From Terramyces sp. JEL0728 (taxonomy: Eukaryota > Chytridiomycota > Chytridiomycetes > Rhizophydiales > Terramycetaceae): a DNA stretch of 64,000 bases. The notes under the pieces were generated by a model. That model made no database searches, was not told the origin of the DNA, and saw nothing but the letters and a program-made list of their open reading frames with translations. Below, piece by piece: positions 10,767-55,922 of this stretch; the stretch's first letter is position 1, and every line of letters begins with the position of its first letter. The DNA lies in NCBI GenBank assembly GCA_027603945.1, contig JADIIU010000061.1, positions 1-64,000 of the forward strand, read 5' to 3'. The position numbers were made by a program, and so were the translations under genes.

Positions 10767-13199
10767 TCAAGGTCCTTTTGGAGCTGGAGGACGGACGTAT
10801 TTTGGCACGCATTTCGCATGGTAATCTGTGTACAGCTTGATTTTTCTTTCAAATCTTTCATTTAATTCTGACAGTTCAGATGCATGTTCACTTCTGCAAT
10901 AGTCGAATTTGACTTTGGTTTCTCCATTTTCTTTGCCATGTTTGCGTTCCAGTTCTTTGATTTTCTTTGAGAATTTTAGTTCAATGAGCTTGATGGTCTT
11001 TTCCTGCGCTTCCTTCAATTCCTTGATTTTGTGAGCATACTTTTCAACAAGAGTGTGCTTCTTTTTGTACAGCTTTTCCTTGGCTTCCAGATAGTACTTT
11101 TCTTTCAGCTCCTTCAAGGATTTCTTGTAAGAGACTCTAAGCTCTTCCAGCTTTTCTTGCACCTTTTTTTGGATTAATTTTACATCATCTTCGTAGGATT
11201 TTTCAAGTGCGTCCAACTTGGCTTTGAGTGCCTTTTCTTGAGCTTCAACTGACTCTTCCAGTTCCTTTTCAGCGCATTCGATAGCATAATCCGATTCGAT
11301 CTTCAATGCAATGATTTTCTCCTCCAATTCTTCTTTCAAAATGCTAATCTTGTGGTGATCGTCCTTGCATCCCTTGATCAATTCTCCATAGTGCTTTTTC
11401 AATTCTGCAATCTCTAATTTAAGCTCCTTCTTGGCATCAGCTATTAATTTTTCTTTGGATTCGCGATAATCGTGCCTTGCCTTTTTCATTTGCTTTTCAA
11501 CTTCCAAGACTGCTTTGCGGTAGTCAGTATGGCTTTTGGTAAGGAGTTCTTTCAAGGAAGCTTCCAATTTGTGTTTATCTTCAAGGAATTTCTTTTCCAA
11601 GGCTTGCTTGAGCTTTCTTCTTTCTTTTCTTTCTTCATGCTCTTTCTTCAAGCGTTCCTTCTCTTCCTCCAATTTCTCCTTGTGTTTACGAATCTTCTTT
11701 TCCTTCAAATCGGCAATCTTTTTTAGTTTAGCTTCATCATGTTCAACATCCTTTTCTTCTTTAGCAAATTCCTTCTTCAACTTTGAAATTTCCTCCTTAA
11801 GTAGTTTTTCGTGCTTTTCCAATTCTTCTTCCTTCTTTTTGGCTTCTTCGATGATTTCCTTCTTGTGCTTTTCTTCCAACAATTCAGCTTCCTTGTGTTT
11901 CTTCTCAAGTTCCTCCAAATGCTGCTTGTACTGTTTCTCATGAGCTTCTACCTCTTCCTTGTGTTTCTGGGCACGGATCTTTGCAGCTTCTTTGAATTCT
12001 TCACGCATGTGCTTGATTGCCCGTTCATGTTCTTCTGTCCACTCCTTGATTTGCTTTTCAATTTTCTCCATGAGTTCGTTGAGTTCTTTTTCAGAGTATT
12101 TCTGATCACCATATCCATATTTCTTGTCATTAGAAGCCTTTTCAAAGCATTCAATTTGGCGCTTGAGCTTTTCTTCCTTGGTTTTCACTTCATGTTCAAG
12201 CTTCTCTTCTTCCAACTTTTCCTCGTGTAGGAACTTTTCTTTAAGATCATGGATTTTCTTTTCCCATTCAAGCTTCTCTCTTTCCACCTCTTCTTTGTGA
12301 TGTTTTTGCAGTTTAGCAATTGTTTCAACATACTTGGCTTCTTCTTCTTCCCTGTGCTTTCTGTTTTTCTCAAGGGCTTCATGTTCCCGTTGCAAAGTTT
12401 CTTTTTCGTTCGAGTGAACATTTTCCAACTCTTTCAGTTTTTTGGCAAGCTTCTTCTTTAGCTCATTCAGCTTTTCCTTGTCGTGTTCAATATCTTTGAC
12501 TTCTTCTTCATGCTCTTTGTTCAATTTTTCGATTTGATCCTTGAACTTTTCTTCTTGAGCTTTCATTTTGTATGAATGCTTAGCCTGGTTCTTTTCATAC
12601 TCGGCATCATACTTTGGGGTTTTGTAACTATTTTCATTTTTTACAGGAGGTTCTTTTTTTCCATAGCTTGGTTTATACTCATGGCGAGGAAGCAGAATCA
12701 CATTGTCAATGACAGGCCCGCAGCTAGTGGCAGTGGTTGACGTGATTTCAATTACAGTTTTGGCGTCTTTTGCCGTAAATTCATATATAATTTCTTTCCA
12801 GACTCCGTTTGCTTCGTCGTGGTTGTACTTGAAGTTGAGCGGTGCTACCCCTGTTGCAGAGACATACCCAGTTTTTTCCTTTGGATCGCACAGGTAGTTT
12901 GCATTCAAAAAGAAAGACAAAATATACTTTTCGCCCGGAACCAAGGCCACCTGTTGTTCAATACCGTATGGGTTGTTGGCGCTGAGATCCATTGACCATT
13001 CTCCGTGCTGATTAATCCAAGGGGAGTGATCCAATTCGAATTCAGAGCCATGACAAACTTTCCAAGGTGCGATGGCCTTTTCATCCGTCAAGATACACCA
13101 AGATGATTTACAATATGCACTGCTATGGTCTTCAAAGTCACCATTTTGCAAGAGGTTGGCAGATACAGCCATAGCAAACAAAGCGGCGTTAAATAGCAT
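10767..13199 (-). CDS. Secreted DUF642-like protein with 600-residue coiled coil
   Basis: 810 aa, intronless. A signal peptide (MLFNAALFAMAVSA) precedes a DUF642-like domain, residues about 15-180 (NLLQNGDFEDH, GEWSMDL, TSCGPVIDNVIL). From about residue 200 to 800 it is almost unbroken lysine/glutamate-rich heptad sequence, ending in VRPPAPKGP. This predicts an extended coiled-coil rod carrying a globular carbohydrate-binding-like head, released to or beyond the cell surface. The coiled coil has few cysteines or glycines. I know of no named protein with this architecture; the combination is my reading of the sequence. It sits next to the short form and is transcribed in the same direction. 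Confidence 0.85.
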   Translation of the reverse strand: MLFNAALFAMAVSANLLQNGDFEDHSSAYCKSSWCILTDEKAIAPWKVCHGSEFELDHSPWINQHGEWSMDLSANNPYGIEQQVALVPGEKYILSFFLNANYLCDPKEKTGYVSATGVAPLNFKYNHDEANGVWKEIIYEFTAKDAKTVIEITSTTATSCGPVIDNVILLPRHEYKPSYGKKEPPVKNENSYKTPKYDAEYEKNQAKHSYKMKAQEEKFKDQIEKLNKEHEEEVKDIEHDKEKLNELKKKLAKKLKELENVHSNEKETLQREHEALEKNRKHREEEEAKYVETIAKLQKHHKEEVEREKLEWEKKIHDLKEKFLHEEKLEEEKLEHEVKTKEEKLKRQIECFEKASNDKKYGYGDQKYSEKELNELMEKIEKQIKEWTEEHERAIKHMREEFKEAAKIRAQKHKEEVEAHEKQYKQHLEELEKKHKEAELLEEKHKKEIIEEAKKKEEELEKHEKLLKEEISKLKKEFAKEEKDVEHDEAKLKKIADLKEKKIRKHKEKLEEEKERLKKEHEERKERRKLKQALEKKFLEDKHKLEASLKELLTKSHTDYRKAVLEVEKQMKKARHDYRESKEKLIADAKKELKLEIAELKKHYGELIKGCKDDHHKISILKEELEEKIIALKIESDYAIECAEKELEESVEAQEKALKAKLDALEKSYEDDVKLIQKKVQEKLEELRVSYKKSLKELKEKYYLEAKEKLYKKKHTLVEKYAHKIKELKEAQEKTIKLIELKFSKKIKELERKHGKENGETKVKFDYCRSEHASELSELNERFERKIKLYTDYHAKCVPKYVRPPAPKGP

Positions 13200-50498: not shown

Positions 50499-51549
50499 AT
50501 GTCCTCACTTCCATGGGTTGAAAAATATCGTCCAGCTTCACTCGATGATCTAGTATCGCACAAAGATATTATATCTACCATTACCACATTCATGGATCAA
50601 GATAAACTGCCGCATTTGCTGTTGTATGGACCGCCAGGTATTATTATTTTAACAATAGGTACGGGCAAGACATCAACTATCCTTGCGTGGTAAATTATAC
50701 TAATGTCAGCGCTAGAACTTTATATGGGAACAATTTCAAACCCAAAGTGCTGGAATTGAATGCATCTGATGATCGTGGGATAGATGCCGTCAGAGAACAA
50801 ATCAAAACATTTGCGTCTTCAAGGATTACTACTTGGGAAAAGACTTCAAGAGCAGTCCCTTACAAATTGATTATCCTTGATGAAGCAGATGCATTAACTC
50901 AGCAAGCCCAAAATGCACTGCGAAGAGTTATTGAGCAGTACACCAAAACTACAAGATTCTGTTTGATTTGTAATTACGTCAACAAGATTATTCCTGCTCT
51001 ACAATCCAGATGTACCCGTTTCAGATTTGCACCGTTGGAAATTGATCAGATTGACAATAGACTTCAAATCGTATTAGATGCGGAAGGCGTCAACATTACA
51101 AGTGGTGGAAAGGAAGCCTTGTTGGAGCTGTCTAAGGGCGATATGCGAAAAGCTCTCAACATCTTGCAGTCTTGCCATGCAGCGAATGATTTGATTGACC
51201 AAGACGCAATTTATCAAACTACAGGCTCTCCACATCCGTCTGATATTAAACAAATTGTTGATTGGCTACTCAATTCGGATTTTACCGAATCTTATTCCAG
51301 TATACTTGTCCTAACATAGACATTTGCCAGCTACAAGTGGAAAAGGGATTGGCCGTCAGCGATATTTTGACGCATATTTTCCGGTTGGTCAGTGGGTTAG
51401 ATATGCCTCAAAAAAGCCGGATTTATCTGATTCAAGAATTGGCAGATATAGAATACAATTTGTCTGTTGGCTGTTCGGACAAGATTCAACTGAGCGCTCT
51501 AGTAGGTGCTTTCAAGAATAGTATTGATATGACTCTTGTACTTCGCTAA
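50499..51549 (+). CDS. RFC3: Replication factor C small subunit, Rfc3 type (human RFC5)
   Basis: 329 aa; introns at 50638-50658 (21 nt), 50690-50709 (20) and 51300-51319 (20). An AAA+ ATPase of the PCNA clamp loader. Landmarks are LPWVEKYRPASLDDLVSHKD, Walker A GPPGTGKTST, restored only if the 21-nt intron inside it is removed, ELNASDDRGID, Walker B LIILDEADALT, and the SRC motif QSRCTRFRF. The first intron is open in frame, so an ORF-only reading would break Walker A with seven extra residues. It is a partner of CTF18 (58835-61856) in the alternative clamp loader Ctf18-RFC. Confidence 0.96.
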
Positions 51550-51629
51550 ATAAACGAGTTCCCATTTTCGCGTTTCGGTGAAGCCTCAGCTTTGGCTCGT
51601 TTCATGAAATTTCTCACTCCAAAACACAC

Positions 51630-53134
51630 ATGGAGGAACTAAAGTGCGACCAGTGTGATAAGCAAGCGCACTTCATGTGCTCATTGTGCAACAGCAGCAA
51701 ATACTGCTCAACTGATTGCCAAAAACTGGACTGGCCAGAGCACAGGAAAACCTGTCCTGAATACCTTCGACGAATGCAGGAACCAGAACCAGAGGAAACC
51801 GAAGAAGAGAAAATACAGAATATAAAGTTTTATGTAGGACAATTATATACCATCCTTAAACCAGTAACATTAACCATATTAACCTCCATTTTGTGGGTGA
51901 AACTCAATAACCCTTCAACTCCATATTTTGCGACTAATGAAATGTAATTTTAAACTAATGCAGTCCTCGACAAGCTGCCTCTGTTGGAACTTCATTTGGG
52001 ACGTCTGGAAATTCATCTTCGGATAATCAGCAATCTTTGATAATTGCTGGCATTATTATGGGACAAATTGTAGTGGCGACTGTTGTTATGGCATGTTTGT
52101 TTAGATATGGACAAGTCAAAATTATATACGGGATTCTTGGAGTGCTAATTTTGATGTTACTTGGATTATTTGGATACCAATTGGCACTTATGCTGCTGAC
52201 TATTTCCAATATTCCATTTGACTGGATTAGTTTTGTATTTTGTTTGTGGAATTTTGTTGCAGTTGGCCTCGCTTCTATTTTCTGGAAAGGTCCTCAGTTA
52301 CTGCAGCAAGGCTATCTGGTATTGATGTCATCAATGATGGCATTCTCCCTATCGAGCTTACCTGCTCTGGTAACTTGGATTTTACTTGGTTTCTTGGCTG
52401 TTTGGGACTTGATTGCGGTTCTATGTCCCTATGGCCCTCTTAGAATCATGCTGGAGTCTGCACAAAAGAACAATACTGAATTGCCTGCCGCGTTGATCTA
52501 CTCGGCCATGGTTTGGGTCGGTATGGCTTCTCCACCAAGTCCTCGGCATCCACTTTCTACCCCTGCTCAAATATCCCCGCTAGACTTGCCTGAAGCATTG
52601 GATGTGGATGAAATCATTCAAGAAAAACCCAAAGTCGCAGTTGTGGATCCCTCTAAAGAATTGCAAAACGATATTCCAGCGTCCGACCTTTCCAAAGACA
52701 ACGCTAATGATGTGACTGATAATTTGGAAACCAAGCGATTGACTTCTGAAATCGAAATGACAGAGCTAAACAGAGATGGACAAGTAGTAGAACAGGAGGA
52801 GGAAGATGACGAAGAAACCGGACTCAAGCTAGGATTAGGCGATTTTGTGTTTTATTCTGTGCTGGTTGGAAGAGCTTCATTATATGATTGGATTACAACC
52901 ATTATTTCCATTTTGGCAGTACTTTCCGGTCTGGTTCTAACCATCTTTATCCTGGTTCTGAAAAGAAAACCTTTGCCTGCTCTTCCAATATCAATCTTTT
53001 TCGGGATTATCTTTTTCTTGGTTGCTTCATTGACTCTCTCCCCAATGATGACAGATTTAGTCGTAAGCAATGAAGTTGCACCAAGAGGGACTCTGAGTGC
53101 GGGACTGCTTGGAGAAGGGTTTGTGTATTTGTAA
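51630..53134 (+). CDS. PSEN: Presenilin with an N-terminal MYND zinc finger
   Basis: 494 aa with one 20-nt intron (51944-51963). Residues 6-42 are a complete MYND finger: C6-x2-C9-x7-C17-x2-C20-x5-C26-x3-C30-x7-H38-x3-C42. After an acidic linker the presenilin fold starts at about residue 68 (VGQLYTILKPVTLTILTSIL). The catalytic aspartates are D253 in AVWDLIAVLCPYGPLR and D398 in the GxGD motif LGLGDFVFYS; PALP is at 443-446. The loop between them (272-395) is acidic. Presenilin is the aspartyl protease core of gamma-secretase and also acts in ER calcium and trafficking. MYND and first membrane helix share one exon, so the fusion is not a splice artefact. I know of no described MYND-presenilin. 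Confidence 0.93.
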
Positions 53135-53390: not shown

Positions 53391-55922
53391 ATGGAGACAG
53401 ACATGGTTTTGAAACTAACAGAAATCCAAAAGTTTTACTTGAAGAATCGCCAAATTCTGATTCCTTCTGAAACTAAACCGATCAGTGATAAAGTCTTGAA
53501 GAATGCTGTAGATTTGTGCTTGTCTGTTGCTGGCGTTTCTCCAAAAATTCTCGCTCAATACCCAGAATTGGTTGGCGCACTTAAGGAATACCTTACCGTA
53601 AAGCACTCGCACGTCGCTAATATCGAGAATACCTACATGACCTCGTTGGCTCATGCATTGAATTCAGAAACAGATGATCTCGTTGGATATATGGAAAAGC
53701 TGTCTGTGTCCGACAAGGATGAAAGCTACAAGTTGTTTCTCAGGATAATGGAGATGATTTCTTCAATTCAAGAATGTGCAGTCTGCATGTGCAATGATGC
53801 CACCATCATCTTCCAATGCGGCCACTCTACTTGTTTATCGTGTTCACAAAGAGTACAGCAGTGTCCATTCTGCAGAGTAGCCATTGAACATAGACTAAAT
53901 GACAAGTCAACCGAAGAAGTAGTAGAAGCCAAGTTACCAAAGTTCAAGCTGGTAAAAGACCCAGAAACCTTCTTTGCTTCCAGGATTGCCGGTTTGCTCA
54001 AGAAGACTTCTAGTTTAGATGATATATCAAAGGTGGAAATTTCTTTACTTGCTGCGCAGAATCCAATGGCGGTATTAGATTTCTTTGATAACAATGGAAA
54101 CTACATCAAATCCGAAGAAACTTACTGCTATGTCTTGGGAAGCATATTCAAATCTCAAATTTTGGATCCTTCCAACACAAGGGCCACTGATGCTGCACTT
54201 TCATCCGACAAGCGTGGTTCCTGGACTTTTATAGAAAGAGATTTCGCCGATATCTTGCAGCAAAGAATCAATTCGCCAAACCGTTTAATCAGATTCATAT
54301 CTACAATTACTGGAGGAATGCCAACCACTGATGCAAAGCCAGAATTGAAGAAAGTAAGCCGTCCAATGATCAAGTGGATTGCAGGATGTTTGGACAGAAT
54401 GGATAGTGACAAGACGCAAGTGGAACTTCAAACTAGACTAGGGTTCTGGGCGTGGCTATTCAAGAAGATCCATATTGGAAGTAAGTTGTACAAAAAGTAC
54501 GCCAAGACTCAGGCATACGCACAAATGGTGCGTGGAAACATTCCGTTTGAAGTAAAGTTACCAATGGCAGTATTCCACGAATTGTTTAACGCCAAGGACA
54601 TTGGAATTTTTGAATTTCTACATAGCAGACCAGGTTTACTATTCAGATATCTCCGTGCCGTTTTAATCAATTACCACAAAGAAACAAAAACCCAATTTCG
54701 AAAGTTGTTGGAACCAATTTTCAAGCAATTTTCTGGCCCTCAATTGATCGAATCGGTTTACATCTTGGAAAAGACACCAAACCAAACCGGCACCAAGCCT
54801 TTCTACAAAGTCAAGGACGGCTCGTTCTTTGAAAAGAATGAAATCACCTCAAAGTTTCCAGATTTGAAGTTGCTGGAAATGGTTGTTTCAATGTTGAAGG
54901 CTGAATTGGCATCCAGAGATATCGCAAAGGAATTATGGGTAGATACTACTGTGTCGTGGGATTTGCAACATTTGAAGCGCGGAAGGCAAGGAAAGGTGCC
55001 AGAATGGGTTGACACGGTAAATGCTACTGGAGATAAGGTTATTTTGGACCGTGATAGCGATATCTTGTTGTTTATCCACTGGGTGCAAGAAGGTAGCGAC
55101 AGTGTGGATTTGGATTTGTCTGCTCTATTTTTCAATGAGGACAGCAAATACATTGGAACCTGTGATTTTACAACTCTTCAAAATAGTGGATGCACCCACT
55201 CTGGAGATTTGAGAGAGGCACCAGCACCAAATGGATCATCCGAGTACATCACTTTCAAGTTAAAGAATGTTTCTGCCGATGTTTCAAAGATAGTAATCCA
55301 GGTATACTCTTATTCCAAAGTGCATTTTGAAAAATTGCCAAGATGTTTGGTAGGCGTGGGCACTTTGGATTCTGGTGCAAAGGGTTTGGGGCCAAATGGC
55401 TGTCATGTTATTTCTGCTTGTTGTTTATTGGGTGCTTCTACTTCCAACATGTGTGGCTATATTGATACGAGAGAGAGTTCGTTGACCTTTATCAATTCGA
55501 ACCTGAAAGGCGACAGAGATGTGACTGCTGCCAGTGGTGGACACACAGCTTATAGTTTTATTGAAAAATTCCAAACTTGGGCAGATTCTCGTATTCCTCC
55601 AACTCTTGGGTTTGTAATCAACCATCTCTACTATGTGTTCACTACGGTCAGATTGGTCAAGGAGGAAGGAAGCTTCATTTTCAGAATTCGCAAGGGTGAA
55701 ACGAAGGGTGCATTCGTTGAACGACTGATTGCAGGAGCTGAATTTGACAAAGAATTCATAGCACAAGAAACCGATATGGAAGTCGAGGCAGCACCGGTTT
55801 TATACTTTGGAGCTAAACCAGTGGAATTGCCAGCTGGAAGTACTGTCATCTCCAACACTGACCCAAAACTTGAATCGGACGACTGTGTATGGACCAATGA
55901 CCCATATGCCTGCTTTGTATAA
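53391..55922 (+). CDS. RING-finger protein with C-terminal TerD-like domain
   Basis: 843 aa, intronless. A C3HC4 RING lies at about residues 129-163 (CAVCMCNDATIIFQCGHSTC, then CPFC). The large middle region is helical and unassigned. A TerD/TelA-like beta domain spans about 555-720 (VDLDLSALFFNED, and THSGDLREAPAPNGSSEYI), the family of bacterial tellurite/stress proteins that bind calcium. From memory the layout recalls a bacterial RING protein family (MXAN_6230/SCO0854). The fused enzyme is presumably a ubiquitin ligase, unproven. Its lack of introns among intron-rich genes fits recent acquisition or processing. AATAAA overlaps the stop. Confidence 0.85.
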   Translation: METDMVLKLTEIQKFYLKNRQILIPSETKPISDKVLKNAVDLCLSVAGVSPKILAQYPELVGALKEYLTVKHSHVANIENTYMTSLAHALNSETDDLVGYMEKLSVSDKDESYKLFLRIMEMISSIQECAVCMCNDATIIFQCGHSTCLSCSQRVQQCPFCRVAIEHRLNDKSTEEVVEAKLPKFKLVKDPETFFASRIAGLLKKTSSLDDISKVEISLLAAQNPMAVLDFFDNNGNYIKSEETYCYVLGSIFKSQILDPSNTRATDAALSSDKRGSWTFIERDFADILQQRINSPNRLIRFISTITGGMPTTDAKPELKKVSRPMIKWIAGCLDRMDSDKTQVELQTRLGFWAWLFKKIHIGSKLYKKYAKTQAYAQMVRGNIPFEVKLPMAVFHELFNAKDIGIFEFLHSRPGLLFRYLRAVLINYHKETKTQFRKLLEPIFKQFSGPQLIESVYILEKTPNQTGTKPFYKVKDGSFFEKNEITSKFPDLKLLEMVVSMLKAELASRDIAKELWVDTTVSWDLQHLKRGRQGKVPEWVDTVNATGDKVILDRDSDILLFIHWVQEGSDSVDLDLSALFFNEDSKYIGTCDFTTLQNSGCTHSGDLREAPAPNGSSEYITFKLKNVSADVSKIVIQVYSYSKVHFEKLPRCLVGVGTLDSGAKGLGPNGCHVISACCLLGASTSNMCGYIDTRESSLTFINSNLKGDRDVTAASGGHTAYSFIEKFQTWADSRIPPTLGFVINHLYYVFTTVRLVKEEGSFIFRIRKGETKGAFVERLIAGAEFDKEFIAQETDMEVEAAPVLYFGAKPVELPAGSTVISNTDPKLESDDCVWTNDPYACFV

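Follow-up and report, generated by a model that had tools for sequence, protein, structure and literature searches.

The 64,000 nt stretch analysed here (the window) is the start of contig JADIIU010000061.1 of Terramyces sp. JEL0728, a chytrid of the order Rhizophydiales (Chytridiomycota). At nt 51,630–53,134 of the forward strand it encodes a 494 amino acid (aa) protein made up of a MYND zinc finger followed by a complete presenilin. The finger is likely, if by no wide measure, to provide docking at the cytosolic face of a predicted gamma-secretase. The sequences themselves bear out the fusion, its occurrence in one aphelid and in the majority of the early-branching groups of fungi sampled, the correlated divergence of finger and presenilin, the retention of peptide-contact residues in the finger and the presence of all four gamma-secretase subunit genes in Terramyces.

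Gene and Protein Structure

The gene has two exons separated by a single 20 bp GT-AG intron (nt 51,944–51,963; GTAATTTTAAACTAATGCAG). Exon 1 (nt 51,630–51,943) begins with the first in-frame ATG, at nt 51,630, and carries the N-terminus, the MYND finger, an acidic linker and the first membrane helix (TM1, transmembrane helix 1) in one stop-free frame. Exon 2 (nt 51,964–53,134) specifies the remaining presenilin and ends on the last base of the stop codon, so that the boundaries proposed in an earlier, sequence-only reading of the window are exact. The deposited hypothetical protein HDV01_006378 of the same strain is identical across all 494 aa and uses the same splice, and at the level of sequence the MYND–presenilin fusion at nt 51,630–53,134 is confirmed as real. 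Introns of 20–21 bp are very short for a fungus, and there are three in the part of the window that holds this gene and the upstream RFC gene. Removal of the two RFC introns (nt 50,638–50,658, 21 bp; nt 50,690–50,709, 20 bp) restores the motif GPPGTGKTS, and so introns this short are also present next door. An out-of-frame upstream open reading frame (ORF) of 12 codons (nt 51,604–51,642, forward strand) runs across the start codon of presenilin. This ORF might reduce use of the MYND-containing start, which is a caution on the fusion.

The zf-MYND domain (Pfam PF01753) covers residues 6–42 (nt 51,645–51,755) with an E-value of 2.9e-9, which passes the cut-off, and the earlier proposal that a complete finger lies in the same exon as the first membrane helix was borne out. 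The putative zinc ligands (C6, C9, C17, C20, C26, C30, H38 and C42) form a C4–C2HC set with MYND spacing, and the finger is predicted to adopt the MYND fold. Tyr25, Gln31 and Trp35 are putative peptide-contact residues by comparison with BS69, from which the contact positions were transferred by spacing. A section of PMC4742278 describes the BS69 residues Y540, Q546 and W550 as positions outside the zinc ligands that are strictly conserved and matter for the binding of ligands by BS69, ETO and DEAF-1, and mutation of Q546 or W550 is stated there to have largely abolished EBNA2 binding; a section of PMC3555993 gives Gln529 and Trp533 of DEAF-1 as the equivalents of Q546 and W550. Single-sequence AlphaFold2 (AF2) modelling of the first 53 residues returned a mean predicted local distance difference test (pLDDT) score of 81, with a layout that differs from that of the alignment-based model. 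Behind the finger lie the acidic linker (residues 43–66, nt 51,756–51,827), for which phmmer gives an alignment with the acidic segment ahead of TM1 in human presenilin-1, and a long helix including TM1 (residues 58–93, nt 51,801–51,908; AF2 model secondary structure). The Terramyces protein differs from human presenilin-1, the catalytic subunit of gamma-secretase, in having a MYND finger before the acidic segment. To our knowledge, human presenilin-1 has none.

The presenilin domain (Pfam PF01080) spans residues 67–467 (E = 3e-102) and matches profile positions 2–408 of 408, and the presenilin fold is predicted for it. As the sequence-only reading had noted, both catalytic aspartates, the GxGD motif and PALP are kept: Asp253 (WD motif, TM6; codon at nt 52,406–52,408) and Asp398 (GLGD motif, TM7, G397-D398; codon at nt 52,841–52,843) are invariant in alignment A1, an author-chosen set of 58 presenilins described below, and PALP (residues 443–446, nt 52,976–52,987) is nearly invariant. 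The Terramyces genome also returned matches to nicastrin (E = 3.6e-28), APH-1 (E = 1.4e-28; this match crosses four stop codons, taken as introns) and PEN-2 (E = 3.1e-23), which makes a full gamma-secretase possible. With all four subunit genes present, the Terramyces presenilin is predicted to form gamma-secretase.

Occurrence of the Fusion

Two protein searches, with the Terramyces and Sorochytrium proteins as queries (best 120 of 880 and best 120 of 843 matches), provided 149 distinct presenilins, 58 of which make up A1. Of the 149, 79 went into a MYND profile with which carriers were scored (independent E-value below 1e-3). This domain-architecture search across relatives, which had been proposed as a check on the fusion, placed a finger in 95 of the 149, 84 of them complete and always at the same end of the presenilin, so the Terramyces fusion is not a chance one. 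Cut MYND remnants were seen in P0065 and P0119. Pfam, applied independently, found MYND in 54 of the 58 A1 members. Carriers include Batrachochytrium, Spizellomyces and Rhizoclosmatium in the Chytridiomycota; Allomyces, Catenaria, Blastocladiella and Sorochytrium in the Blastocladiomycota; the zoopagomycetes Basidiobolus and Syncephalis (the Syncephalis model begins inside the finger); Mucor, Rhizopus and Phycomyces in the Mucoromycotina; Rhizophagus and Gigaspora in the Glomeromycotina; and members of the Mortierellomycotina. The aphelid Amoeboaphelidium protococcarum is also a carrier, and a second aphelid, A. occidentale (P0081), is without MYND. In two of the proteins, P0012 (Polyrhizophydium) and P0143 (Batrachochytrium salamandrivorans), the Pfam columns show ARM/HEAT repeats attached to presenilin, possibly by the fusion of neighbouring gene models.

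TM1 could be anchored in 48 of the 54 non-carriers. Twenty of these have fewer than 60 aa ahead of TM1 or no Met, and are probably truncated models; the other 28 have at least 60 aa, and eight of them are Piromyces or Piromyces-like. Many of the non-carriers are scattered single models. Non-carriers from Geranomyces, Umbelopsis, Cladochytrium, Mortierella and Boothiomyces are close sisters of carriers, which suggests, judging from the models, that first exons are missing from them. All seven Monoblepharidomycete- or Neocallimastigomycete-like tree rows lack MYND, although two of the models (P0110 and P0145) are short and four rows, from jgi, were assigned by similarity. The only animal proteins among the named matches listed, three from Trichuris, were all without MYND. 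A MYND-only search with the aphelid sequence returned the query itself as its single candidate, and scans of viral and prokaryotic contigs with A1 gave no confirmed case among 51 and 28 pattern matches, respectively.

Uniqueness of the fusion was therefore rejected, as it recurs across many fungi. Within the open-access literature covered, the earlier statement that no case is known to have been described stands, as no description of the MYND–presenilin architecture was found among the papers listed (subscription papers lay mostly, and preprints almost wholly, outside this scope), but it fails as a claim of singularity: dozens of deposited fungal orthologues show the fusion under automatic domain labels, and the architecture is openly visible in database domain annotation. 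A passage in Gazave et al. 2009 (PMC2770060) reports presenilin as absent from the fungi sampled by those authors. The fungal gamma-secretase described by Merenyi et al. 2023 (PMC10406608, main text) involves the same presenilin family in non-Dikarya fungi, of which the Terramyces gene is an example, and the word MYND does not occur in that main text, so that the fused finger is an addition here. With presenilin in non-Dikarya fungi already reported, what is new is the conserved finger, a probable docking module, that this presenilin carries in addition.

Conservation and Descent

Conservation was compared in 49 fusions, the set A1 minus nine rows with no finger or one that is incomplete by profile coverage (P0002, P0007, P0010, P0017, P0019, P0020, P0023, P0087 and P0127). 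Mean pairwise identity is 0.51 in the MYND finger, 0.56 in the pre-TM1/TM1 region, 0.59 in TM2–6 and 0.69 in the C-terminal part, and falls to 0.15 in the linker (residues 43–63) and 0.18 in the loop. The choice of rows favours the eight zinc ligands, without which the identity of the finger is 0.38, or 0.33 if Tyr25 and Trp35 are also left out. Each zinc ligand is retained in 44 to 49 of the 49 rows. Beyond the ligands, A13, Q31 and W35 are present in all 49 and Y25 in 48; the seed pattern required Tyr/Phe and Trp at their positions but not Gln or Ala, and 44 of the 49 rows had served as seeds. Among the 95 carriers the string Y-C-x3-CQ-x3-W is intact in 93, the exceptions being P0025 (Phe for Tyr) and P0105 (a broken finger). 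Five chytrid proteins (P0103, P0050, P0095, P0078 and P0087) have His, with unchanged spacing, where the eighth ligand is otherwise Cys, and this ligand is missing in P0117, P0093 and P0105.

A quick core-only tree was reconstructed from 88 of the 149 presenilins (55 with MYND, two with remnants, 31 with none) and rooted on two distant Trichuris rows; 32 of its 84 inner branches are open. MYND occurs in both large groups, one of 39 rows, mostly chytrids (Shimodaira–Hasegawa-like approximate likelihood ratio test, SH-aLRT, 85), and one of 40 rows (98) comprising Blastocladiomycota, zoopagomycetes, Mucoromycota and, nested inside, the aphelids. The MYND-less Monoblepharidomycete/Neocallimastigomycete group is set apart (support 82). 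The raw MYND label requires a minimum of 19 changes on this tree, a figure inflated by truncated models. Because of the aphelid placement and the separate MYND-less group, the tree alone cannot separate an early gain with loss from a later gain. Distances in the MYND finger correlate with those in the presenilin core (r = 0.704, 49 rows; reached by none of 2000 permutations), and a profile made from 58 presenilin MYNDs from outside the chytrids ranks the Terramyces finger as the best of 11 MYND matches in its genome (50.9 versus 38.8 bits). The occurrence in both groups, the distance correlation and the profile ranking favour one old fusion followed by vertical descent, and the fusion would have arisen once, early in the fungal/aphelid line. 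Monoblepharidomycetes and Neocallimastigomycetes are counted within the chytrid line, for which reason loss is preferred for them; the fusion would then have been lost in that lineage, and have gone from Dikarya together with gamma-secretase.

Function of the Finger

The N-terminus of presenilin would be cytosolic, as in human presenilin, an analogy that supports the cytosolic position presumed for the finger in the sequence-only reading. There the finger would probably act as a tethered module that binds a short proline-leucine peptide (PxLxP or PPxL type) of a cytosolic protein, either a substrate tail or an adaptor, and such docking would determine which proteins the protease encounters or the place of the complex in the cell. 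The idea of a built-in recruitment module is strengthened by the retention of Y25, Q31 and W35, although the role stays putative. Its extension to transcriptional or histone-modifying partners draws solely on the behaviour of animal MYND proteins: the fingers of ETO/RUNX1T1, DEAF-1 and BS69/ZMYND11 sit in nuclear transcription and chromatin proteins, whereas that of Terramyces is joined to a membrane protease. More tentatively, and with somewhat less than even confidence, it may be proposed that a fungal/aphelid ancestor gave gamma-secretase its own cytosolic peptide-reading finger, so that a PxL-type code would govern the choice of substrates or adaptors, and that the finger was retained across a range that runs from aphelids to mycorrhizal fungi, whereas Dikarya shed it along with gamma-secretase. 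If true, fungi would have their own answer to the problem of substrate choice, one that none of the animal presenilins seen here shares. How gamma-secretase selects among single-pass proteins is an open question, and a fused peptide-binding finger would make substrate choice testable, as its ligand names a partner or substrate. Fungi, as far as we know, have no Notch receptor, and the fusion offers a handle on the role of gamma-secretase in fungi, in a conserved architecture that lies behind automatic annotation.

Two observations call for caution with the docking reading. At least six of the ten other MYND matches in the Terramyces genome also have the Y/Q/W residues, and no PxLxP ligand conserved across fungi was found inside presenilin itself, in the N-terminus, linker and loop of the 75 sequences that could be anchored among the 84 with a complete finger (nine could not). 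Linkers contain PxLxP in 21 of the 75 sequences, compared with 1.0 in shuffles. Twenty of the 21 belong to the Mortierellomycotina, so these occurrences are not independent, and the remaining one is chytrid P0050; among the anchored MYND carriers, no such motif was seen in the linker of Terramyces or in those of the other phyla. In the loop, PxLxP is present in seven of 75 (3.0 expected; reached by 4 of 300 shuffles), and PxL alone in 70 of 75, presumably owing to the conserved PALLY-type start of the stretch. The Terramyces loop has PLDLP, which is similar to a CtBP motif; motifs of that type occur in one of the 75 loops (0.8 expected).

The finger could instead be a zinc-held structural module that binds no peptide and aids folding, stability or assembly, for instance through packing against PEN-2 or the presenilin N-terminus. 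Retention of the zinc ligands fits this, as does the long helix predicted to connect the finger to TM1, but the peptide-contact residues are among the most conserved non-ligand positions, and the distance between MYND and the TM1 anchor ranges over 30 to 151 aa across the 75 anchored sequences, which suits tethered docking better than packing; we consider the proposal unlikely. Nor is it probable that the finger is mainly a trafficking or chaperone adaptor, setting the location or assembly of the complex by binding a co-chaperone or sorting factor, for instance one like FKBP8, with which both presenilins and MYND domains interact in animals, although there is some chance of this. An FKBP8-type partner is attractive because the FKBP8 N-terminus binds directly to the MYND domains of PHD2 and ANKMY2 (as cited in PMC6044906) and because a paper on a presenilin–FKBP38 interaction exists (Wang 2005, by its title in the references of PMC5699232). 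In the Terramyces loci inspected at exon level (five of seven FKBP matches, three of six CS and the single NAC), however, there was no clear FKBP8, no PxLE in the matched ORFs and no true p23 that could be identified, and PxLE chaperone ligands (p23, NAC, FKBP8) were set aside as unsupported in those loci.

An intramolecular switch, with the finger binding a linker PxLxP until freed by a competing ligand, is improbable: it draws on the excess of linker motifs, but these come almost entirely from one related group, some members of which carry M in place of L. Within that group PRLTP or PQLTP stands directly before TM1 (P0036, P0053–P0056, P0058–P0060 and others), with PRMTP in some relatives, and is possibly a lineage-specific self-ligand. 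That the finger is an artefact, not translated with presenilin owing to an internal start at M49 or a mis-joined frame, is hardly credible despite the upstream ATG at nt 51,604 and a Boothiomyces model that begins at the M49 equivalent, as a single exon and reading frame hold both MYND and TM1, dozens of species show the join, and conservation is far higher in the finger than in the linker.

Other Genes in the Window

The next gene downstream (nt 53,391–55,922) encodes an 843 aa protein in which a RING finger (7.8e-7) is combined with a TerD-like domain (1.1e-5, narrowly past the cut-off), a pairing not known to be common. On the reverse strand, an open frame at nt 10,770–13,199 carries a DUF642 domain (1.1e-14), which is best known from plant cell walls.
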